Assembly: GCF_963678975.1 (NCBI RefSeq)
Contig: NC_089275.1
Coordinates: 32,797,977 to 32,861,976, forward strand
Origin: Dysidea avara
Lineage: Eukaryota; Porifera; Demospongiae; Dictyoceratida; Dysideidae
Direction: 5' to 3'
Length of the DNA stretch: 64,000 nt
Shown: positions 12,761 to 49,700 of the stretch, one piece after another
Layout of the letters: each line of letters begins with the position of its first letter
How positions within the stretch are numbered: position 1 is the stretch's first letter
Made by a program: the position numbers and the translations under genes
Notes under the pieces: model-generated
What the model was told of the DNA's origin: nothing
Seen by the model: the letters and a program-made list of their open reading frames with translations, nothing else
The model's database searches: none

Positions 12761-15700
12761 CCCGGATAAATCATTTCGCACTGAAAACAATTTAGCTTGT
12801 CAAGCTCGTGCGATTATTAACTCGAAGTTGCTATCTGATCATGAGCTACAGGATATACAGCAGCGCCAAAGAGCAGATGATGAACAATTACCAAATGAAA
12901 GTAAACTTGAAACATCCCCGGAGGGCTCATTGCAAATGAGAGATACTTCTATTGATGCTGTGTTGCGTCCTGTGCCATTGGAGGACGAACCAAGTGAGTT
13001 TGTACAGTTAGTGGGCTGTGTGGAGGACTGTTTGTCTGATGTTACTATTACCGAGGAGCTGAAAATTGCGTTTAAGCAGTTACATAGCTGTCTTTTGGAG
13101 ATTGACACTTTGGACCTTGCTGAGAGGCAGGCATTGCCAAAATTGATTGACAACAAAGTTGGTAAGAAGTGGCTACACATGATGAATAAGTGTATAGATG
13201 AATGTGTTCAGAAACAAATTATTTCAATCTCTCAGTGTGATTGTTTAATATATGCAGGTGCAATGGCGGTCATCAGGTTGTCTGGCCAACATGTTGAAAA
13301 AGGTGGGAGGAGGGGTCGACAGGATGTTTGGAAACTCCGTCTGGAGTCACAGATAAAGAAATTTAGAAAGCACATATCACAACTGTTGGCTATCCATCAA
13401 TCTCCTGTGTTAACTGCTCGATTGCGACATTTGAAAGCTCACTTGTTTAAACTCTATCATATAATGGATAACCCAACTTTTTTAATTGCTATAGAAACAT
13501 TGAAACAGAAAGTAACTAGCTTAGCTACTAGAATACGGAGATACCAGACTAGATTACTTAGATTTTGGCAAAACAACACCTTCAGGAGAAATCAGAAAGT
13601 GTTCTATCGCAGTTTTAGTCCTGATTCTAAACATAATTACGTTGGAACTCCTGATAATTTAGACCTGATAACCTTTTGGAAAAGTATTTTTGAACGAAAT
13701 GCTTCTGCTAACTTGGATGGCTCCTGGCTGACGCAATTGAAGGAAAAGTTTAATAAGGAAAATATACTTGATGGAGCCATACCAGCTATAACATCAGAGG
13801 TGTTTGCTGTTGCTATTCGCAAATTGAGGAATTGGGCTTCTCCAGGTCCTGATGGCATCCAGGGATTCTGGTGGAAGCGGTTCTCCTCGGTTCATGACTT
13901 TTTGTGTAGTGACTTTCACAAGTTACTTGTAGGGGACATGGCTATACCTCATTGGTTCCCCATTGGTCGGACCTTGTTAATTCCAAAGTGTCATGATTTG
14001 TCTAACCCCCAGAACTATCGACCAATTACCTGTCTAAATATTGTTTATAAACTATGGACCAGCTGTCTTACCTTTCTAGTATCTCAACATTGTGAACACC
14101 ATCAACGTATCCACCCTGCTCAGAAAGGATGTTGCAGAGGCCAGTATGGATGTGCTGATCACCTTCTATTGACTAATAGTGTATGGCGTCAAGTGAGATG
14201 TAAAAACAGATCCCTGGCTGTTGCCTGGATTGATTATAAAAAAGCATATGACTCTGTCCCACACAACTGGCTTCTGGAGTGCATGCGTTTGTTTAACTTT
14301 CCACCTGTACTGGTGGCTTGCTTGGAGAGATTGTTGCCATTGTGGAGGACCACTTTATATTTACAACTACCTAAAAGTGCCACAACACAATTATCCAAAG
14401 TGTCTGTTAAGTGTGGTATTTTTCAAGGAGACACCCTGAGTCCATTGTTATTTTGCTTGGCTCTAAACCCACTTAGTTATTTGTTAGATGCTCTTAAGGG
14501 ATATAAGATGTCTTCAAGGTCGAATTTAACACATCTGATGTATATGGATGACATTAAACTATTTGCACAGAATGATAAGTGTTTACAGCCGCTTATAGAC
14601 ATTGTCAGAAAGTTTTCTGATGACATTCAAATGCAGTTTGGATTCCAAAAATGTGCCAAGATGTCTGCAACCAGAGGGAAAATTGGTCTGACTGGGCCTT
14701 TACCAACTCTAGATAATGTGATTAATGAACTCGATTATGGCCAAACCTATCGATACCTGGGGTTTCCTGAGGCTGGCGGTATTGATCATGCTGCTAGCAA
14801 GTCAATTATAACTACTGAACTTCACAGACGATTGAAACTGGTATGGGGATCTTTGCTTTGTGGGCCACTTAAAGTGCGTGCTACCAACAGCTTTTGCATT
14901 CCGTTGCTCTCTTACGGATTTGGTATTGTTGACTGGACCAAAACGGAGATTGCCCAGTTCGATATCACTGTCCGTAAGGTACTTACTGCTGCCAATAGCC
15001 ATCATCCACGTGCGGCTGTTGAAAGGTTGTACTTGACTCGTAGAATGGGGGGAAGAGGTTTAGTGAACATTGAACAACTTTATCAACGACGTTTGGTTTT
15101 ATTGGCCCACCATCTGCGGGCATCGAGGGATGATCTTGTACAGGCCTGCTGTGAGCTGATGTTGCAGAGTCCCTCACGTAGGTCTGTATTTTCTATGGCT
15201 GATGATGTTGCTTCTTCACTAGCTTTATGTGATGTGTTGAATTTTAGCTCGGACCAGTTAAGGACCGCTGTGGTAACTTCTCAGAGGAAGAAACTTTTGA
15301 ACACATTGTATGCCAAACCATTGCATGGTAAATTCTTTACATGGGTACATTCATCCGTTATTAACACTGCACGTAGTTTTCGATGGTTGCAGTGTTCGAT
15401 GCATGGTGAGTCCGAGAGCAGCATATTTGCTATCCAAGATCAGGTCTTATGTACAAGATCTTATCAGGCCAAAATAATGAAAATACCTGTCCAATCCATC
15501 TTGTGTCGTTTGTGTCAGGAGCATGAAGAGTCAATTCAACATCTGTTATCTGGCTGCCCTGCACTTGCATCAACAAGCTATCTTCGTCGACATGACATGG
15601 TGGGCCGGGTTCTCCATTGGCATCTGAGTAAGTGTTTCAAGTTACCATTATCTGCTAAGCACTGGTATGACCATCAGCCCTTGCCGGTGGTTGAGAATGA

Positions 15701-16311
15701 TTCTGCAAAGGTCCTATGGGACTTTAGTTTACAAACTGATGGTCATGTTCCTTCGAATCGACCTGACCTTGTACTGTTCCTGAAACATGAACATAGAATA
15801 ATGTTTTTTGAAGTATCTTGTCCTGCGGACGTTAATGTACCTAATAAGGAGCAGGAGAAACTAACCAAATACCAACCACTTATCCGGGAGTTTTCTGAGT
15901 GTCATGGTCAGCCTGTTAGCATCATACCTGTTGTTTTTGGTCATTCAGGTGTGGTATCAGTTAATCACACCTGGCTGTTTCTGTCAGTTAGGATTACTTG
16001 AAGCAAATCCCAAATTACAATGAGAACTTGTTTAATAGCCTCCAGAAAGCTGCTATCTTGGGGACCGTAAACATCTTAACATCTTTGAACATTGGCTGTA
16101 CTTAGGCTTATGCTTGTATTGTCATTGTATTTCTGTACATACTGTACATGTGTGTCAATTCATTTGAATGAAAAGTAGTAGTAGTAGTAGTAGAAGTAGC
16201 AGTAGCAGTAGCAGTAGCAGTAGCAGTAGCAGTAGTAGCAGTAGCAGTAGTAGCAGTAGCAGTAGTAGTAGCAGTAGTAGCAGTAGTAGGAGCAGTAGCA
16301 GTAGCAGTAGC

Positions 16312-29895: not shown

Positions 29896-30538
29896 CTTAG
29901 GTGACTCACAATGCTAAAGACTTAAACAAAAATATTACCAAATTTAATATTAAATTTGCAAAAAAAAAATTTCTGTGGGGGCATGCCCCCAGACCCTCCT
30001 AAATAGAGCATGCTCCGCATGCCGAGTGTGCTTTGTATGCATGCTATAATAGGTAGTTGTATTAACTGGTTGTCGCTTTTCTTAGCCAACCAACCAACCA
30101 TTCATATGCTAGCACCCCCTTCTGAAATCCTAGATCTGCCCCTGCTATATGCCAGCAATAGCAAGTGTAAGTTTACAGATTTTTTTTGGTGAAAATGATT
30201 ACCACACCCTTGAAGTATGCAACAGAACTTTGGAAACCTGTCACCAAAATTCCTGGAGCCACCCTTGGTTTTATATATGCATGACAAGCAAGAATTAGTT
30301 TGTACCTCTAACAGCTAAATAGCACTATGATATATAACTAATTACTTCAGTGTTAAGATTAATTTTCCTTGTTATACTCTGCTCTGCATGCATGGGAGAT
30401 TCTTTAGCTGTAGCTGTGTTCAGATATCTCAACCTGTTAAATACATGTGAGGCTAAAATTTATGTAAGAGTGGTATTTATTGCTATACGAAGTCATTTTT
30501 TCTCCATTTATAATTTAATGACATGAGATATAAACTAT

Positions 30539-31174
30539 AATTGTGACCCTATTTTGGAAAACCATACATCTAGGCACATGCAAAATTTGTGGGAACTATA
30601 AATTGAAAATTTCAGTGATTTTTTTAAAATTAGTTTTTTTACATATTCTGATAAAGCAACTATTAAGCCTTCTTGCTGTGAAATTTTACACCCATAGCTT
30701 CTTTTGTCTAGGAGATATACTGAATTATATCAGACCATGTAGTAGTTTCACATTGCGTGGGACAACAATTAACTTACAAATTAGGTGAATTGTTCATTCC
30801 CAAAACCAAACATTTTCCTGTCTTTACACAATATTACAAGTGATTTAATTGAGAAAAAGCACAAAGAACACATGATTAAACTCTTAAGAATCTCTTTTCA
30901 TTAATTTTAAATTGAAAGAATGGTGATCTTTGTCAACAAAGTGATTTGTCATCAATTTGTCACATCTGATCACTATTCAGTTCTATAAACTGATAATAAA
31001 AAGTTAGTTTGTAATGTATTAGACAGTAAATTGGCCATATCTTTGGAATGCTTCAACATATCGTCACAAAATTTTCACACAATGTAGATAACCACTCAGT
31101 GCTTCATTGTAGCTGTAAAAAACAAAATTGGCCAATGTTCCCAGATGTATGGTTTTCCAAAATAGGGTCACAAT
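30539..31174. mobile_element. TIR element with TTGTGACCC ends
   Basis: The left end AATTGTGACCCTATTTTGG and right end CCAAAATAGGGTCACAATT are inverted repeats extending ~30 bp (to ACCATACATCT). It is 636 bp with no transposase. The right 390 bp is duplicated at 29500-29895. The boundary sequence is symmetric, so a target duplication cannot be separated from the ends. Confidence 0.75.
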
Positions 31175-31204
31175 TTGTCATGAATTAGATGGAAACTACA
31201 CATG

Positions 31205-32329
31205 TGAGATAACTAGCAAAATAATGCATGTGTGCCTCGGAGCTAAGGTGGCATGTTTTAAATGTATAGCACAAGGATCTAGTAGGCATATAAGGTTTAG
31301 AACATTTTGCTGGGCAAGTGTCTAATTGTCAAGTAAAGTGATGTAGTGTTTTTGTGTCAAGCATTTCTCAACCTAAAATCACATTTTAGATAGATTTGTA
31401 ATTTAAGACAACCAATTAGCTAACATTTAACTACGTAAATTACTCAGAAAGTCTTGAACTGTTTTGAATGAACTGCTGTGGAATGTTACGGGTCTTAAAG
31501 CTTTTGTGTATAAAGATTTGTGCTTAAGTATCCCATATGATCTTTCTGTAAGTACTCTCAACATTTGGTACTCTCAACATGCTGATAAGGCGTCAGCTGT
31601 CTTAGAGGCATTGCCTGTAAACTTCTATTTGTATTGTCTCAGGAAGCATAATGTAACTATCTCCTCACTCTATTTCTGTATTAAGAGTAAAGTGAAGTAT
31701 TGTGTGAACTGATGCAATTAAAGTCTGACATTTCCTCTTGCTCCCTGAAATGCCATATATAGTATATAACAGTGTTATAATGTAAGTGTTGTAATTGTTA
31801 AACAATAACTAAATCAAAAATAGTTTTTGTAGTAGCTTACAAATTATTGTTAACAATACCTAATAACATTTTAATCCTACACAACAAATAATAACAAGAA
31901 TTCTAAAATCCTTTTTTGTAACATTAGGAAAATTATTGTGCTGGAAATGAATTTATCAATGCACTTTTGACTTACAGAAAGATCATATGGGATACTTAAG
32001 CACAAATCTTTATACACAAAAGCTTTAAGACCCCTAACATTCCATAGCAGTTCATTCAAAACAGTTCAAGACTTTCTGAGTAATTTACGTAGTTAAATGT
32101 TAGCTAATTGGTTGTCTTAAATTACAAATCTATCTAAAATGTGATTTTAGGTTGAGAATGCTTGACACAAAAACACTACATCACTTTACTTGACAATTAG
32201 ACACTTGCCCAGCAAAATGTTCTAAACCTTATATGCCTACTAGATCCTTGTGCTATACATTTAAAACATGCCACCTTAGCTCCGAGACACACATGCATTA
32301 TTTTGCTAGTTATCTCATACCATTCATCT
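31205..32329. repeat. Large inverted duplication, ~355-bp arms
   Basis: 31205-31555 and 31970-32329 are reverse complements with few differences. Both contain GAATGAACTGCT, CTTTTGTGTATAAAG and CCCATATGATCTTTCTG. The ~415-bp centre is unrelated. Identical-looking 30-residue frames on opposite strands (MNELLWNV...) come from this duplication and have no supporting exon context. Confidence 0.85.
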
Positions 32330-32850
32330 ATCAAGACAGACATTTCAATTATGTCCAGGAATGATGATGCTAACTTTTTTTGTGGAGTTATATCAGATGG
32401 TGACTGAATCCATCAAGAAATACCTAGTAGTGACTGAATTCATCATCAAGTAAGGAAAATTCATGGCCACAGATCTGCAGTATTATACAGTACAACTAGT
32501 TTACGGATTAGTAGCAATCAGCACGTTATTCTGTTTTATGACAAAAAGTTTGTCAGCAGCTAATTAAGTACTACAAAATGTTGACACTCCTGCATCTTTT
32601 CATGTTCCAGAAGCCAACATACTGCTAACTGATCAATGTGTGAAAGCATGCAGCATCTATATCAGTAACATACACAAGCAGAGCTGCTATATAGCCAGAG
32701 CTGCCAACACTTCACTAATGCACTGCTTTTATAACTATTATCTATAGTAGAGAAAAATAAAATATATATATAATATATGATGTTAACATAAAATTATATG
32801 TAAAGAAAATATAATACAGTCAATTTTAAAGCAAAACTAAAATCCATAGG
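32330..32850. other. 3' flank of the TIR-SLOG gene
   Basis: AT-rich sequence with ATATAT runs near 32760-32780. It contains no gene that I can support. It presumably holds the 3' UTR of the minus-strand gene. Confidence 0.4.
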
Positions 32851-34221
32851 TTATTTCTTTTTAGTCGGTTCTTTTATGCTAACAACATTCTTGAAGCACA
32901 CTTCCACAATATGGATCAAACTGTCTACGATATCAGCTACTGTTGCTGACTCATCACCAAGAACAGACCAAACAGACTCACTCACTCCAGGAGGACGCTG
33001 GAATATGCTACTAGGGGCATTGAACTTACCTCCAGCTGTTCCACCTGTGCACTTAACTGGGATAACAATTGCTCCATTCCACGCCAATTGCTGTACTTCA
33101 TAGGCAGCTCCCGGACCACCTTCGATGAGAATGCAAATGTTCATGACACGTGAGGTAGCAGTATTGCATTGCCGCACTGAATTACCTAAAAAGATCGTTT
33201 CACCATATGGAACTGGCTCCATTGTACCATCAGCTCTTTGTCTGATCTGTCGAGACTTGTCAGCTGAATCCTTCACAGCTACAGCATGAAAGAGGTTGAG
33301 GGGTAAGCCAAGCTTCTTGCGTTGGCCCTGAAAACTTTTTGCTACCACATCTCCAATACCAAAATATCCTCCAGTCACAACAAAATTCGATTCTCGTTTT
33401 GCAAGTTCTTTTCCAAGGAGTTTACAAATTGCTTCACCGTTTGGACTGTAGAATTGACTACCTCCTGAAATGTACACACAGTTCCCTTCAGGCAATTGAG
33501 AAAACAACTCCTGCTGTAACCGTTTCAGCTCCCTCTCTTCTCGTTTTCCAGTGCTGATGCTGTCAGGTTTGAGAGCTTGCTTAACTCGTTTGAGTAGTAT
33601 TTCATCAAAGGTTTCACCTCGACCATCAATGAATTCCTCTGTTCCCACCAAAATGGACACCCAGTATGGCATCTCAACTACCTCGTACAAAACAGGTATC
33701 ATCTTCTTCCGGTGTTGGGAGAAATAAACCAACTGCTCACAAGTTACATCACTACAGAAATCCTTTGATATGATACACACGACCACACTACAATCCCTAA
33801 CTTTCTTTTGGAAGACAGAACTGTTAGTACTGACAGTTCCCTTAGTTTCAAGCTCTAGACTAGACCAAACAGAATATTTGTTCTTTTCCAGGTATTCTTT
33901 GACATAACTGTGGAATGATGCTTGTGTTGAATGGCAAATAGTGACCACAAGAGGCATGTCTAATTGGCGTACATTTGGTTTCTTTTGTTGTACCTTAGCA
34001 GGTTTAGGAGCCATGGCTTCCTGGTTCTGTTCCATCACTTCTGCTATTCCTGCTGCTATTTTAGAAGCCGACCTCTCCACAGATCCCTTTACCTCCCACT
34101 GTATATACTGGACACCAGAAAACTGTATAGCTAGACAGTTTGGGGGCCAGTGAGGATTGAGGTTGAGTGGAATAATAAACTTTCCCAGACTATCCGCATG
34201 TTTCACCTCAAGGTTTGTCAC
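32851..34221 (-). CDS. TIR-TIR-SLOG protein, 3' part (rest of TIR1, TIR2, SLOG)
   Basis: A 456-residue frame starting at a GTG that is probably not a real start. Residues 1-58 complete the first TIR (TNLEVKHA carries a candidate Glu; GKFIIPLNL). Residues 89-216 form a second TIR-like domain: LVVTICHSTQ start, CEQLVYF with Glu 162 at the NADase position, KKMIPVLYE strand. Residues 247-440 are a SLOG/LOG-type Rossmann fold: VYISGGSQF, VVTGGYFGIGDVVAKSF, then ILIEGGPGAAYEV, which matches the LOG PGGxGTxxE nucleotide-binding loop with changes. SLOG domains bind nucleotide-derived signals in known families; TIR domains can make such signals from NAD+. No introns are visible. It ends in a Lys-rich tail and TAA at 32851. 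Cytosolic location is inferred, as no signal peptide or membrane segment is present. Confidence 0.85.
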   Translation of the reverse strand: MTNLEVKHADSLGKFIIPLNLNPHWPPNCLAIQFSGVQYIQWEVKGSVERSASKIAAGIAEVMEQNQEAMAPKPAKVQQKKPNVRQLDMPLVVTICHSTQASFHSYVKEYLEKNKYSVWSSLELETKGTVSTNSSVFQKKVRDCSVVVCIISKDFCSDVTCEQLVYFSQHRKKMIPVLYEVVEMPYWVSILVGTEEFIDGRGETFDEILLKRVKQALKPDSISTGKREERELKRLQQELFSQLPEGNCVYISGGSQFYSPNGEAICKLLGKELAKRESNFVVTGGYFGIGDVVAKSFQGQRKKLGLPLNLFHAVAVKDSADKSRQIRQRADGTMEPVPYGETIFLGNSVRQCNTATSRVMNICILIEGGPGAAYEVQQLAWNGAIVIPVKCTGGTAGGKFNAPSSIFQRPPGVSESVWSVLGDESATVADIVDSLIHIVEVCFKNVVSIKEPTKKK

Positions 34222-34247
34222 ACTGGTCTCACCATAGTGACTGCTAA

Positions 34248-35138
34248 CTATGGAACAAACACAGCAGCTTTCTGAAGGTATTTGTTGGTATAATCCTGTT
34301 CAGGTGACTCGCTGCTAGAAAATACCCCGCTAGTGTCTTGTGATTGACCATCAGTGTAGACTTTAAAGCCGAGCTTCTTTAGTGCAAGCTGCAAAGCAGA
34401 TGCGTGAGTACCAGCCTCGCCACTAACATAACTCAAGTAAATTTTCTTCTGAGCCACTGCCTCTGTAACAGATGGCTTCTTGGCTACCACAGATGATAAT
34501 GCTTCTGGTGCACCACCAACTGTTTCTACTGCAGATTTAAGAGTGACGTAAATCTGACCATTATCAACAACGTCAAGTAAGGTCAAGCTATCTTCTTGTG
34601 ATGGACTAACTGGATATTTCAAATTGCCACACATGAACAAGTACTCTGAATCACCTACTGTGAGTATGTCACTGCGCGCTACTTGGGTTTGGATGGCCTC
34701 ACGGACTTTACTGAGTGGAGAACTCAAGAAGGAAGCGATCACTCCCATATTAGTACCATCTGGGTGTAAAATAACACCGTACAATGGGGGATGTGACCGC
34801 GTTATGTGCTCTGCTACATACAACACACCATCCTCTGCTAAATCAGCTGGCTTTAACGAGCTCAACAATTCTTCCTGGGTGATGGGGTATCCTTCTTTAG
34901 TGACGAAATGGAAGGGGAAATCGTCAGGAAGCATGGGCTTGATGACTCCCACGAAATCTTTAAGTGTTGTCTGATCATCCTTGCCCGGCTCGTCCTTGCC
35001 TTCAGCTGGCCAATCGTAAGCCGCAGTTCCTATAGGCGTTGAGCGCAAATCCACCGACTGGAGCGAAATCTTGATGAACTTTTTTGCCATTTTAACCACA
35101 GCTACGCACCCCAGGCCACCATTAACTTCCATATTCAT
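34248..35138 (-). CDS. TIR-TIR-SLOG protein, 5' part (beta-grasp-like repeats, first half of TIR1)
   Basis: The frame opens at a GTG (35177), but the plausible ATGs are 35138, 35132 and 35090. The last (MAKKFIK) has A at -3 and G at +4. Two similar units, FPFHFVTKEGYPITQEELL and EYLFMCGNLKYPVSPSQED, each end G-x-x-YV. I read them as a duplicated beta-grasp or ubiquitin-like fold, an inference from pattern only. TIR1 begins at KKIYLSYVSG and stops at AAVFVP with an in-frame TAG at 34248. The sequence just downstream in the -1 frame (VSSHYGETS then TNLEVKHA) continues the TIR fold. A single missing base near 34250 therefore breaks the gene. It could be a real inactivating change, an assembly error or programmed frameshifting. 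Confidence 0.8.
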   Translation of the reverse strand: MNMEVNGGLGCVAVVKMAKKFIKISLQSVDLRSTPIGTAAYDWPAEGKDEPGKDDQTTLKDFVGVIKPMLPDDFPFHFVTKEGYPITQEELLSSLKPADLAEDGVLYVAEHITRSHPPLYGVILHPDGTNMGVIASFLSSPLSKVREAIQTQVARSDILTVGDSEYLFMCGNLKYPVSPSQEDSLTLLDVVDNGQIYVTLKSAVETVGGAPEALSSVVAKKPSVTEAVAQKKIYLSYVSGEAGTHASALQLALKKLGFKVYTDGQSQDTSGVFSSSESPEQDYTNKYLQKAAVFVP

Positions 35139-35247
35139 AACTCTGTGGTACTTGATTGAATCAAAAGTGTTATTCACACATTGAAATCAGCGCATTTTTC
35201 TGCACAAGATGATACTAATTTGTGGTCAATTTGGCGCAAGCAGTAAA

Positions 35248-44299: not shown

Positions 44300-44527
44300 C
44301 CGTATAGTAAAAAACTTTGACGGTAAAAAAGTTTGGCGAATTTGACGGTAAAAAAGTTTGGCGAATGCCCGCAGTTTGAAAATTGACGGAAAAAACATTG
44401 GCGATTGGGTGGCTTTTGTGAAATTACGTAATGGCATACAACAAGGCACGTGGACTCTCGTAAACTGGTTTGGTCAAACCGGAACCACGTGCTAGTGAAA
44501 GCGTGTAGTTTGCTGTAGTCTCCTGCG

Positions 44528-45628
44528 ATGCCAAGATTGTTGTTTCGTTTTTCAGTGGACTCTAGCAGCAGAGGTTATCATGAGTACCAAAGTATATGGC
44601 CGAATCCAACCGCATACGATGAACTTTTATGCGAACGAGAACCTGGAAATAGTCACGATACACATGCCGTTGCCATCAAGAAATATATTTCTGGAGTACT
44701 TTCGACTGTGGGACACGTTCCTAGGAAGATTTCTAAAGTGAGCTCAATCTTTATAAGGCGTGGTGGCACGATTCAGTGTAGGGTAAATGGGCACCAACGT
44801 TATTCAGCTGACCTTGAGCAAGGAGGATTAGAAATTCCTTGTATTTTAACCTACATTATAGATGACCAAAAGGAATGGGCAAAGACACAGGAAACCATCA
44901 ATGTAAAGTTGGGCATAAAAACTGCAGATTGTGTGGATGATTTAGTTAATTTGGACTTTCTTGCTAATGCCAGTGCTGAGTCAACTGCACCACCAGTTGC
45001 TATGGAATCTATAGATGGGTCTGTATCAATGGTGGATTTAACTGCTCAATGCAGCACTCAAGATCAGGTTGATCAGTCACCACCAAAAAAGAAGCCAAAA
45101 AACTTTTGTGAAGAAGACATAATAATGGGCCAAGAACTCTCTAATCTTGAGATCAATCTTTCACAGGAGTTGCTAAAAGCTCAATATCCAAAAGTGAGTG
45201 GACTTCAGTCTACACTTTTTCAAGAAAGAAATCAGCTTTTTCCAAATGGTTTCCTCACTAACTGCATCCAAATTGTTCACTGTCAAGCAAGGCATCACTG
45301 GGTTACAGCTTCGACTATAAACTGCAAGTTAGGTGAAGTGAAGGTTTTTGATACGTTGTTCAATCACTGTGATCAAGAAACAACTGGAATAATTCACAAA
45401 CTCTTTGCTACAGCAAATTTTCCAAAGTTCACCATAACAATGCGACGTTGTCAAAAGCAGAAAGGAGGGATGGATTGTGGGCTGTTCTCTATTGCTAATG
45501 CTACAGCTTTGGCTTTTGGATTACACCCAAGCAAGCAAAAGTATAAACAGTCGGCAATGAGAATGCACCTAGTCCGCTGTTTTGCTGCAAAACAAATGAC
45601 TCCATTTTCACAGCATGCAATTAAATAA
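44528..45628 (+). CDS. HIRAN domain plus Ulp1/C48-like cysteine protease (transposon cargo)
   Basis: 366 residues in one exon. Residues ~5-110 form a HIRAN domain (REPGNSHDTHAVAI, VGHVPRKIS), a fold known to bind DNA ends. Residues 185-191 (PPKKKPK) look like a nuclear localisation signal. Residues ~215-355 resemble the catalytic half of Ulp1/SENP-type C48 peptidases: HHW (His 257), VFD (Asp 275), QKGGMDCG (Gln 311, Cys 317), with the expected Gln-x5-Cys spacing. All catalytic positions are kept, so activity is plausible; the substrate (SUMO-like or other) is unknown. It converges on the transposase gene with 110 bp between stop codons, an interval holding AATAAA near 45705 for this gene. Start chosen: ATG at 44528, 228 bp inside the left terminal repeat. 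Confidence 0.88.
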   Translation: MPRLLFRFSVDSSSRGYHEYQSIWPNPTAYDELLCEREPGNSHDTHAVAIKKYISGVLSTVGHVPRKISKVSSIFIRRGGTIQCRVNGHQRYSADLEQGGLEIPCILTYIIDDQKEWAKTQETINVKLGIKTADCVDDLVNLDFLANASAESTAPPVAMESIDGSVSMVDLTAQCSTQDQVDQSPPKKKPKNFCEEDIIMGQELSNLEINLSQELLKAQYPKVSGLQSTLFQERNQLFPNGFLTNCIQIVHCQARHHWVTASTINCKLGEVKVFDTLFNHCDQETTGIIHKLFATANFPKFTITMRRCQKQKGGMDCGLFSIANATALAFGLHPSKQKYKQSAMRMHLVRCFAAKQMTPFSQHAIK

Positions 45629-45738: not shown

Positions 45739-46780
45739 TTAAAGTAGAATTCCAGCTTCCCTGAAGCCATTTATAATGATGTCAGGTTTGCTTTTAATGT
45801 AGTCATAGCAAGATTTCATCCACCCAGCTCCCAATGGCTTGACTGTGCTAAGTTTTAAATCAACAGGTTTGTGTTTCGACTCTCCTTGCAACTGTGTACA
45901 TACTTTCTTGGCATACCAGGTCTGAAGCTCGTTTCGTAAGTGAGATTTCACTGATTTGTTCACACTCAAATCTAGTGGTTGCAACCTATCGGTGTAGTTT
46001 GCTGGAACCAATACAACATTAATGTTATTTTGATCGAGGAGAGTGAGGATTGCATGAGTACACTGGGCTTTGAAATTATCAAAGGTAAGCAATGCTGGAT
46101 AATCACTAGCAAACTTTAATTCTTCCCTCTTCTTATGGATGTATGGTAGAATAATGTAGGTAATGTACTCTTTCATCGTGTCCTCATTTGACCAATGATT
46201 AGCAGAAAATGTTATGTGCCAATCCGACGGAAAGTCATAATGTGGAAGGCAACATGTTGTTTTCCCTTGATAAACTAATTGAGGTGGCAAAAACTCTCCA
46301 CTCATGGAACCTGCAAAAACAGCAGTTAGCTGTCTTTTGTCGTCTTTGCCTACCAATTCAACCCGTTTTGCCCCTTCTTCAGCCATCGTCCAATCTGAAA
46401 CTGGAACATAATGTATTCCAGTTTGATCAAAATTAATTATAAGCTCCTTAGGAATTTCATCCATTGATACCACTACCTTCATGTCTAAAACGTAGTCTCT
46501 CTTGATTTCTTCAAAGTCCTCAACAGAGATTTTAGCTTTTGTTGTAGCCTTCCTCCTCACAAACCCCATTCGCCGTAACAGATACTTTGCCCATCCTTCT
46601 GTCAAAGCGATTTGTTGTAATAAGTTGGCATCTTTGTGCATGAGTCTACCCTCAGCACTAGCTATAACAACAGCAGTGTTGATAACAAGGCCCTTAGCTC
46701 TTAGAACCCCAACATACTCCCTGACCTGTTTATCGATTTCTTCACCCAGCTTGAGTGGTCGTCCAGTCTTTTTCAGACAG
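45739..46780 (-). CDS. pogo-like DDE transposase, 3' part
   Basis: The native part begins at the AGTTCT junction (46781-46786); the open frame upstream to 47034 is read from the nested element and is not native. It carries a CENP-B-type DNA-binding region (GRPLKLGEEIDKQVREYV, then EGWAKYLLRRMGFVRRKA), then a DDE catalytic core: Asp in NFDQTG, Asp in LLTFDNFKAQ, Asp in LQPLDLSVNK, with 35 residues between the last two (DD35D). A C-terminal tail follows to TAA at 45739. The core has no internal stop. It would cut and rejoin the 44300-50485 ends, but is separated from its N-terminus by a 3.1-kb insertion and so is probably non-functional in this copy. Confidence 0.9.
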
Positions 46781-46786
46781 AGTTCT

Positions 46787-49700
46787 GTCACGGAAATATT
46801 GGTCCGGGTAAATTCGGTCCAGCCGGACCGATTTTGGAAACCAAAACTGGTCCGGCCGGACCAAATTTGGTTGACCAAGTTTAGTCCAGCCGGGCCATTT
46901 TTGGCATCCAAAATTGGTCCGGCCTGACTAAAATTGGTCCGGTCCAAACTAGGTTGGCCACATGCACTGGACCCTAGACCACTTGGACCAACTATAGTTT
47001 TGGTTAGTCCGCGGGTGTACCCGGCATTGTGCATGTGGACAGGTCTGTGAAATGGCTACTCTAGGAAACACTACCACTCGTGTTACATCTCACTATTAAT
47101 CTCCCATTACAAGTACATGAAACCTTACAACCACAGTCATTACCTATATGTGTCAATTACAGGAGATCATGTGTAGTGCATGCATAAGTCTGTGTGTACT
47201 ATCAGTGTTACAGGTCGGTCCATGCTAAGTTTTTTTTGTGACGGATCACTGCAGCCGACTTAGCCTGGAAACTATATAATGAGTAGCGTAGTTTCGATTC
47301 CCGACTTGATTTAGCTACGGAAAATGCATATTACAGTAGTACAGAAACTATTCTAGCTATATGTCGTAGCTATATATGCAGCGATGAACACACACCACAC
47401 AGTCGCAAAATTAATGCTGTTTTAATTTAAAGCAGTGTGAGATGATAAAAGTCCTGCATTCTTCTTCTCCATGTCAATAGCTAGCTGTCCGAGTGGGAAG
47501 TAGAGGTTTTCTTCCCGCATACATCAACTCAAATGCATGGTCAATACTGCATGGACTCATGGTGTGCAATGTTGCATGCAAAAACACAGGTATCAAGATA
47601 TTCTTTTATGACTATATATTCATAGCTAATTTTTGTTTATTGCATCTAATTTATGTATGTATATGTATGTGGTTGGGTGGGTGGGTGTACAGGCTTCTAA
47701 GCCTCAACCCAAATCACATCATAATCACATCATTCTTCCCAAGTATGTTTTTATATGCTCAATAAACTTCACAAGCATCATCGGCTCTGCAGTGTTTGAT
47801 TGAATCTTTCATCCAGCCTGTTAGTATTGATTATGACAAACAACTATAGCAACATGGCGGAAATCACTGATGGTGGACAATATATAAAATCTATCAGTCA
47901 TTAAAACATGTCTTATCTTCAACTTCTGCAAATAGCTCAGAATTTAATTTGTTAATTCTGACCCATGCGCACATTGTCATAAACAGCTACACATATCATC
48001 TCAGGGACTGATCCAGAGGGGGTGGATGGGGTGGCTAGCCACCCACCATGCATGGCCTTGCAGCCACTCAGATTTGCATTATTGAATAATGCCAAATATT
48101 ACTGATCATGAACACTCTTTCGTTATAATCAATATAAACTAAATCCCTGCATTGCATCAGATTCCAATGCTAGCTGGCTATAACCTTACAGTAATTCACC
48201 CTAAGATGTGGAATAATGCGACTGCCCCAAACTTTTAAGTTGGCTAAGTAGTGAAAAACATACTGAGAATATTATAGCTGTAACCTTTAAGGTGATGTTT
48301 CTTCTTGTGGGGCATGTCATTAGTAGGAGATGATAGTTCACATTTAGTTATTCAATGGAGTAAATCTAAACTATCATCTCCTACATATCGCATATGACAG
48401 AGGAATGTGCAGTATGTGCACAGGAGTTACAGATGTATTACACTTTGTCTTAACCATACATTAAATTAGGCCAGGCAAACTTGATTACTAGTTTCTCATC
48501 CACAAAAATCAGTTCAGATTTCCATGTGGGTGGGAGGTCATTTTTCATTATTCATTAGTAAAGAAAATGCTCCAAATCAAGCTGTCTAGTATATAACTAA
48601 AACCTTTTAAGAACTATTACTTACGTATTAGCTACCACCTTTTCTGAGGTGCAAGTGACATTTGCTGTGCTGTAAAATGATAACCAGCCTTCCTAACATC
48701 AAAATACGTGTGCACGTGATTGATAACAGCAATAATGAAATTAGAGGCAGTGGGGTAGGGATGTGGGTGGGGATGAGAAACAATTAATCAAGTTTGCCAG
48801 GCCTTATTATGTTCACAAGGGCATGCTACTAACTATGTGCTGCACTATACTAGCTATAGATGATAATATTGTCAGTCCTTCCTCCCTGATGTAACTACCA
48901 AGACATTCAATACTCTCATCTTAAAATCTGGGCCAGCCACCTACCTTGGTTTATTTCTGGATCAGTGTCTGCATCTCCTACTGGTATATGTGCACAGGTG
49001 AAAATTAGTAAAATTTTAAAGTTGGTTAAGTAGTGAAAAGCATACAGGGAATATTATAGCTATAACTTTTAAGGAAATGTTTATACCATTAGGAACATGT
49101 GATCAGTAGGAGATGATATAGTTCACATTAAGCTATTTAATGGAGCAAACCTAAGCTATCATCTCCTAGTGACTCCTACATATCACATACAAGAGAGGAA
49201 TGTGTAGTATGTACACATGCAGGTGTTACAGAATGATGTATTGTTCTAACCATTAGTGTTAACTCATGATCAGACATTATATGTGCATAAGAGCACAGTG
49301 CACATGCTACTGTGCATGCGCTTCACTGTACAAGCCAGACAATAACAGTGTCTGCTCTTCCCTGATGTAAATAATAAGACATTCAGGACTCTCAACTTAA
49401 AATCTGGGCTAGGCTGGGTAGCCACCCACCTTTATTTATTTCTGGATCAGTGCCTGGTGATGAATGTTATAGGTGACTGCTCTATTAGAGTATCTCGATC
49501 TTAAGCACCTCCAATGCAGCTAGCTAATCCCATGCATGCAATGATCCGTGCCCTTGTTGGATAACCTTTTAAGCACAAATCCATGCAGTGATAATGCCTG
49601 CAATGCTCATTATTCGCGTTCAAGATTGATAAATGAGAATAGCTATAGCTAAGTTGGCTGCAGTGTTCCGTCACAAACAACTTATAGCTATGCATCATTG

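Follow-up and report, generated by a model that had tools for sequence, protein, structure and literature searches.

The window analysed here, meaning the whole 64,000-nucleotide stretch C4:32797977-32861976 of the 550.8-Mb genome of the sponge Dysidea avara, carries on its minus strand a coding region that fills positions 32851-35138 in two reading frames. In the direction of reading, it comprises an N-terminal region of unassigned fold, about 210 residues long from the conserved start (34458..35090), which differs between paralogues; a first TIR domain, TIR1 (34015..34448), interrupted by a frameshift at 34248-34251 and scoring 28.5 bits with Pfam TIR_2 when taken alone (cut-off 28); a second, TIR2 (33550..33954), matched by the same family at 38.4 bits alone; a charged linker, KREERELKRLQQEL, running from TIR2 to the next domain (33487..33549); and a C-terminal SLOG domain of apparent STALD/LDcluster4 type (32854..33486), with the stretches YISGGS, VVTGGYFGIG, SVRQ and EGGPGAAYE, closed by the stop codon of the reading frame (32851..32853). 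ORF1, of 309 residues (34248-35177), ends within TIR1 at a TAG (34248..34250) that stems from a one-base frameshift and is missing in all three of the intact paralogues described below. Downstream of it the coding region continues in another frame, from 34251 to 32851, and, as the two frames meet at 34251 and leave no room, an intron at the change of frame is ruled out. The conserved start codon is the ATG at 35090, and homology with paralogue B sets in 21 nt ahead of it. A first-pass annotation of this DNA had taken 32851-35138 to encode a single polypeptide: the minus-strand coding region does fill that stretch, its start at 35138 is not conserved, and the claim of one uninterrupted polypeptide falls in the window with the frameshift, the TAG at 34248-34250 and the relaxed constraint reported below.

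Pfam scans were run on the read-through window protein and on the second frame alone. The read-through protein matched TIR_2 twice (E 1.7e-15) and, above cut-off, DUF4062 over TIR1 (E 2.5e-7), together with two Pfam SLOG families below their cut-offs, STALD (8e-4) and LDcluster4 (0.026); neither scan returned ThsB_TIR. Elsewhere in the window lie a fold-back repeat (31205-32317, with arms of 189 and 161 nt that are 99% complementary), a homologue of which adjoins paralogue B on scaffold C3; a retroelement reverse transcriptase ORF (12855-15998, RVT_1 9e-25) behind a long serine-coding microsatellite; and a DDE_1 transposase ORF (2.5e-11) with an adjoining ORF (45742-47055 and 44519-45625), the latter with weak matches to HIRAN and Ulp1 protease, both below cut-off.

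The genome contains 27 matched pieces of Wnt genes, a family not known outside animals, and innexin matched it weakly at two places, just above cut-off. A search of the whole genome with the protein as query gave ten matches, namely the window copy, three long ones on C3, and six short ones with stops. The three long matches, paralogues A (C3:1483999-1486236, 745 residues), B (C3:1494989-1497235, 748 residues) and C (C3:1512450-1514666, 738 residues), are each a single uninterrupted open frame and together form a 31-kb cluster on a scaffold other than that of the window. All three have the same domain order, N-terminal region, TIR1, TIR2, linker and SLOG, so that the fusion is real and not an artefact of the damaged window copy, and the animal TIR-TIR-SLOG protein proposed in the first-pass annotation is borne out. 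Overall dN/dS is 0.19 for A-B, 0.26 for A-C and 0.27 for B-C; the corresponding values are 0.08, 0.15 and 0.12 for TIR1, 0.19, 0.12 and 0.19 for TIR2, and 0.19, 0.22 and 0.17 for SLOG. The TIR-TIR-SLOG design is thus maintained by purifying selection in A, B and C. The 5' flanks of the three genes are not common to one another. In its N-terminal region paralogue C (L012 6052-6666) has 55% identity to A and B (L009, L010), with dS of about 1, and in TIR1 94% identity to both, with dS of about 0.2, as would be expected if the TIR part had undergone gene conversion or the N-terminus had been swapped. Adjoining the intact cluster is a tubulin-family gene (C3:1470590-1471981; 463 residues, 4e-50, one open frame). 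Two further elements of this genome carry SLOG sequences. A near-identical element, with aligned pieces of up to 2.8 kb at 99.6-100%, occurs at four places (L005-L008, one on C1, two on C6 and one on C7) and holds a degenerate SLOG piece of the family with in-frame stops, which is a gene fragment captured by a mobile element. An adenosine deaminase-LOG/SLOG fusion (A_deaminase 2e-60, LDcluster4 1e-16) forms a 470-residue open frame on C8, near 32988437 (L043 646-2058).

The window copy is closest to paralogue B, with 93.8% identity over 745 positions, and homology with the paralogue-B locus, covering the gene and its 3' flank, extends over 30216..35111, broken into several pieces that include repeats. 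This shared 3' flank rules out a retrocopy; the 5' flank is not common beyond the 21 nt. With A as outgroup, the window branch carries 38 nonsynonymous and 33 synonymous changes and branch B 7 and 23 (Fisher P 0.008 for the comparison of the two), with 7 further changes ambiguous. Given the frameshift and the relaxed window branch, this duplicate, nearest to paralogue B, has probably become a pseudogene only recently. The frameshift could instead be an error of the assembly, a reading against which the relaxed constraint on this branch counts.

In none of A, B and C did the N-terminal region match a Pfam family up to E 10, and a search of PDB sequences gave chance-like matches only; used as a genome query at E<=1, that of paralogue C found the four copies only. 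The two beta-grasp-like repeats that the first-pass annotation had seen here find no support, with no Pfam match to E 10 and, for one half compared with the other, an hhalign probability of 4% (P 0.01).

The TIR domains were compared in an alignment of the four copies with 13 references, 12 TIRs of the same genome and the TIR of a Burkholderia protein discussed below; the genome TIR_2 search listed 22 matches, four of them the copies' own TIR2, and six partial or near-duplicate ones among the other 18 were left out. Aligned in this way, the catalytic column of TIR NADases holds Glu in TIR1 of all four copies (34207-34209, minus strand, in the window) and in 13/13 references, and Gln in TIR2 of all four (33733-33735). 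Two catalytic Glu residues had been claimed, and the one in LEVKHA of TIR1 does occupy the column; the Glu of CEQLVYF in TIR2 lies one residue earlier (33736-33738). A second alignment, made with an HMM, placed Gln at the column for TIR2 in three copies and a gap in one, and Glu for TIR1 in all three rows printed. As TIR2 lacks a Glu at the catalytic column, each chain would have at most one candidate NADase, TIR1. A Glu at that column also occurs in TIRs with no known enzyme role. Four residues before the Glu, TIR1 has Val where 8 of the 13 reference TIRs have Trp or Tyr, and it contains a long serine-rich loop; given these two features, TIR1 may be inactive.

The best PDB match of TIR2 was Hydra TRR-2 (E 0.02), followed further down by MyD88 (E 0.4-0.6); all of these are weak, and non-TIR proteins stand among them. 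The TIR1 profile found nothing among PDB sequences, and TIR1 of paralogue C alone found only a CCR4-NOT subunit (E 0.05-0.09). The protein could be a scaffold in which the TIRs serve as adaptors, as in MyD88, and the SLOG binds a protein or senses a metabolite, with no NADase activity. TIR2's best matches, weak as all of them are, and the missing aromatic residue before the TIR1 Glu are in keeping with such a role, against which stands the invariance of that Glu and of the SLOG pocket motifs in the four copies. We consider it less likely than the reading preferred below, and a serious rival to it.

The C-terminal domain belongs to the SLOG superfamily on its sequence. The first-pass annotation had assigned it there, with VVTGGYFGIG and EGGPGAAYE as motifs, both of which are present, and the profile check agrees: STALD, LDcluster4 and the PADLOC ThsA models match, and other Rossmann families come nowhere near their cut-offs, the best being an NCBIfam dehydrogenase (E 0.003; 16 bits, with the cut-off at 713), which was rejected. 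STALD (PF18185) scored 24.2 bits against a cut-off of 24 in paralogue B, the best member and the sole one with a score printed, and 23.0 bits, just below the cut-off, in the window SLOG piece; at E<=1 it was listed in 3/4 copies (best E 2.6e-5). LDcluster4 (PF18306) was listed at E<=1 in 4/4 copies (best E 2.1e-5) and did not reach its cut-off of 26.3 bits in either the window piece (18.2) or paralogue B (20.3). PADLOC ThsA (STALD) models matched the window SLOG piece at E 0.001-0.02, and PADLOC models gave nothing with a longer query piece, P0002. A SLOG of ThsA type is thus a possible assignment, with STALD and LDcluster4 about equal. The STALD pocket of ThsA is marked by Ser288, Phe357, Arg371 and Glu403 (PMC7272460). 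In the sponge family all four copies have a Ser after strand 1, a helix Arg and the Glu of GGxGxxxE, which correspond to Ser288, Arg371 and Glu403 by motif context, not by alignment with ThsA. The SLOG profile found no match among PDB sequences, and ThsA was not hit. LSDAT_euk (PF18139) was absent from Pfam scans of the window up to E 10 and of the four copies up to E 1; genome-wide profile searches with PF18185 and PF18139 matched neither here nor in 14 control genomes and carry no weight. TRPM channels have an LSDAT SLOG and bind ADP-ribose (PMC13143021). They share with the family an animal SLOG and differ from it in having a channel, and the match between TRPM2 and the window protein is very weak (E 1.4).

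STALD is a predicted sensor family (PMC7272460), and for some SLOGs a role in processing ADPr derivatives has been predicted (PMC9503650). As a LOG/YpsA-like glycosidase, the SLOG domain would process or remove the product of the TIR, which would accord with the retained GGxGxxxE-type motif, with LDcluster4 in 4/4 copies, a family matched as well by the LOG portion of the adenosine deaminase fusion, and with a TIGR00725 match that is weak and far below cut-off. The higher STALD bits in the window scans and in paralogue B point the other way, and we hold this to be the least probable of the explanations weighed here.

Against 72,556 plasmid records, P0002 had as its sole match a Burkholderia protein, at a non-significant E of 0.2. 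This protein (L015; Burkholderia stagnalis NZ_CP156686.1, a 3.2-Mb record) has a TIR (TIR_2 1.9e-15) directly before a SLOG, which matches LDcluster4 (9e-9) and, below cut-off, STALD (7e-4). In hhalign the family SLOG and the L015 SLOG align with P 8.8e-7, a value for a single pair that a database search had singled out, uncorrected for that choice, and the alignment pairs VPxGE, the GGxG stretch and TGGxA. With SLOG alone as query, six plasmid records matched, the best two being copies of a Rhizobium phaseoli SAV_2336-type protein (L016, E 0.04), which lies next to a MoxR ATPase; in this search the Burkholderia protein dropped to E 3. L016 is alike in its SLOG and has in Pfam a response-regulator match and no TIR. 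Both bacterial relatives have Ala for the Ser after strand 1, and LDcluster4 fits them better than STALD. L015 resembles the sponge family in placing a TIR directly before a SLOG in one chain, and differs from it in having one TIR, other parts, and a TIR with no hhalign match to the family TIRs; hhalign linked neither TIR1 with TIR2 nor either of them with the Burkholderia TIR (probability <1%), and a joint bacterial origin of TIR and SLOG is therefore unsupported. Viral contigs gave no pattern match for relatives, phages gave none at E 1 and two chance matches at E 10, and among bacterial and archaeal genome contigs 17 pattern matches with the window query and 27 with the Burkholderia query included no relatives.

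TIR and SLOG are a known bacterial pair, and the Pfam name of STALD reflects that pairing. Thoeris, with ThsA (SIR2-SLOG) and ThsB (TIR), resembles the sponge family in pairing TIR with SLOG and in having a SLOG of the kind whose ThsA/STALD models match here. The family differs in lacking SIR2, in having two TIRs, in joining TIR and SLOG in one chain and in its animal host, and the defining Thoeris set, a ThsA effector with ThsB as a TIR protein of its own, is not what it presents. An exon-by-exon search for SIR2_2, which matched in 2/14 control genomes, did not find it in this genome, which thus has no evident ThsA-like partner.

A protein that is producer and sensor in cis, as the first-pass annotation had suggested, in which TIR1 makes a (cyclic) ADP-ribose signal bound by the SLOG of the same chain, with positive feedback or self-limitation as the outcome, could draw on the catalytic-column Glu kept in TIR1, on the match of the SLOG to STALD/ThsA-type models and on the bacterial L015, in which a SLOG likewise follows a TIR. 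It has against it that TIR2, judged by its Glu, is not a second enzyme, that STALD is not clearly favoured over LDcluster4, and that TIR-STING and TIR-SAVED sense a signal from another protein, and we judge it quite unlikely. Less probable again is a self-contained animal ADP-ribose circuit in which a cADPR-type signal from TIR1 would be sensed, without SIR2, by the SLOG of the same or a neighbouring chain; in such a circuit TIR assembly would be switched all-or-none, and the variable N-terminal region would be the sensor.

In TIR-STING and TIR-SAVED, the TIR domains assemble and cleave NAD+ in response to a ligand produced by another protein. The sponge family is like them in having TIR ahead of a C-terminal nucleotide sensor, and unlike them in that the sensor is a SLOG, the TIRs are two and an extra N-terminal region is present. 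We tentatively prefer, at somewhat less than even chances, to read the family as a SLOG-gated TIR protein comparable to TIR-STING, with TIR1 as candidate NADase and TIR2 for assembly. Since the effector would then be fused, being the TIR itself, SLOG gating needs fewer assumptions than signalling in cis. The family protein would be soluble and looks intracellular; the ligand of its C-terminal SLOG would be a nucleotide, probably one derived from ADP-ribose, whose binding would control the assembly of both TIRs ahead of the SLOG. TIR1 would be the sole candidate NADase, TIR2 a degenerate TIR acting as assembly scaffold, and the variable N-terminal region an input or partner-binding part. The result would be a ligand-gated NADase as in TIR-STING and ThsA, with TIR in place of the SIR2 of ThsA. 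NADase activity, ligand, gating and an immune role are what we infer for the family. SARM1, an animal TIR NADase, offers a further comparison: TIR1 of the family likewise has a candidate catalytic Glu, and the family differs in that no ARM or SAM was found in it.

Entire clades of animal TIRs are uncharacterised, according to a eukaryote TIR atlas (PMC13142454). No description of an animal TIR-SLOG protein appeared among the literature matches listed, and an earlier mention is possible, for example in the 2015 work of Burroughs et al., reportedly the key SLOG survey. Should the TIR prove to cleave NAD+ under the control of the SLOG, an animal protein distinct from SARM1 and the Toll-like receptors would be working on the same nucleotide-signal principle as Thoeris in bacteria. 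As this genome holds three intact paralogues under constraint, both NAD+ cleavage and its gating are directly testable.
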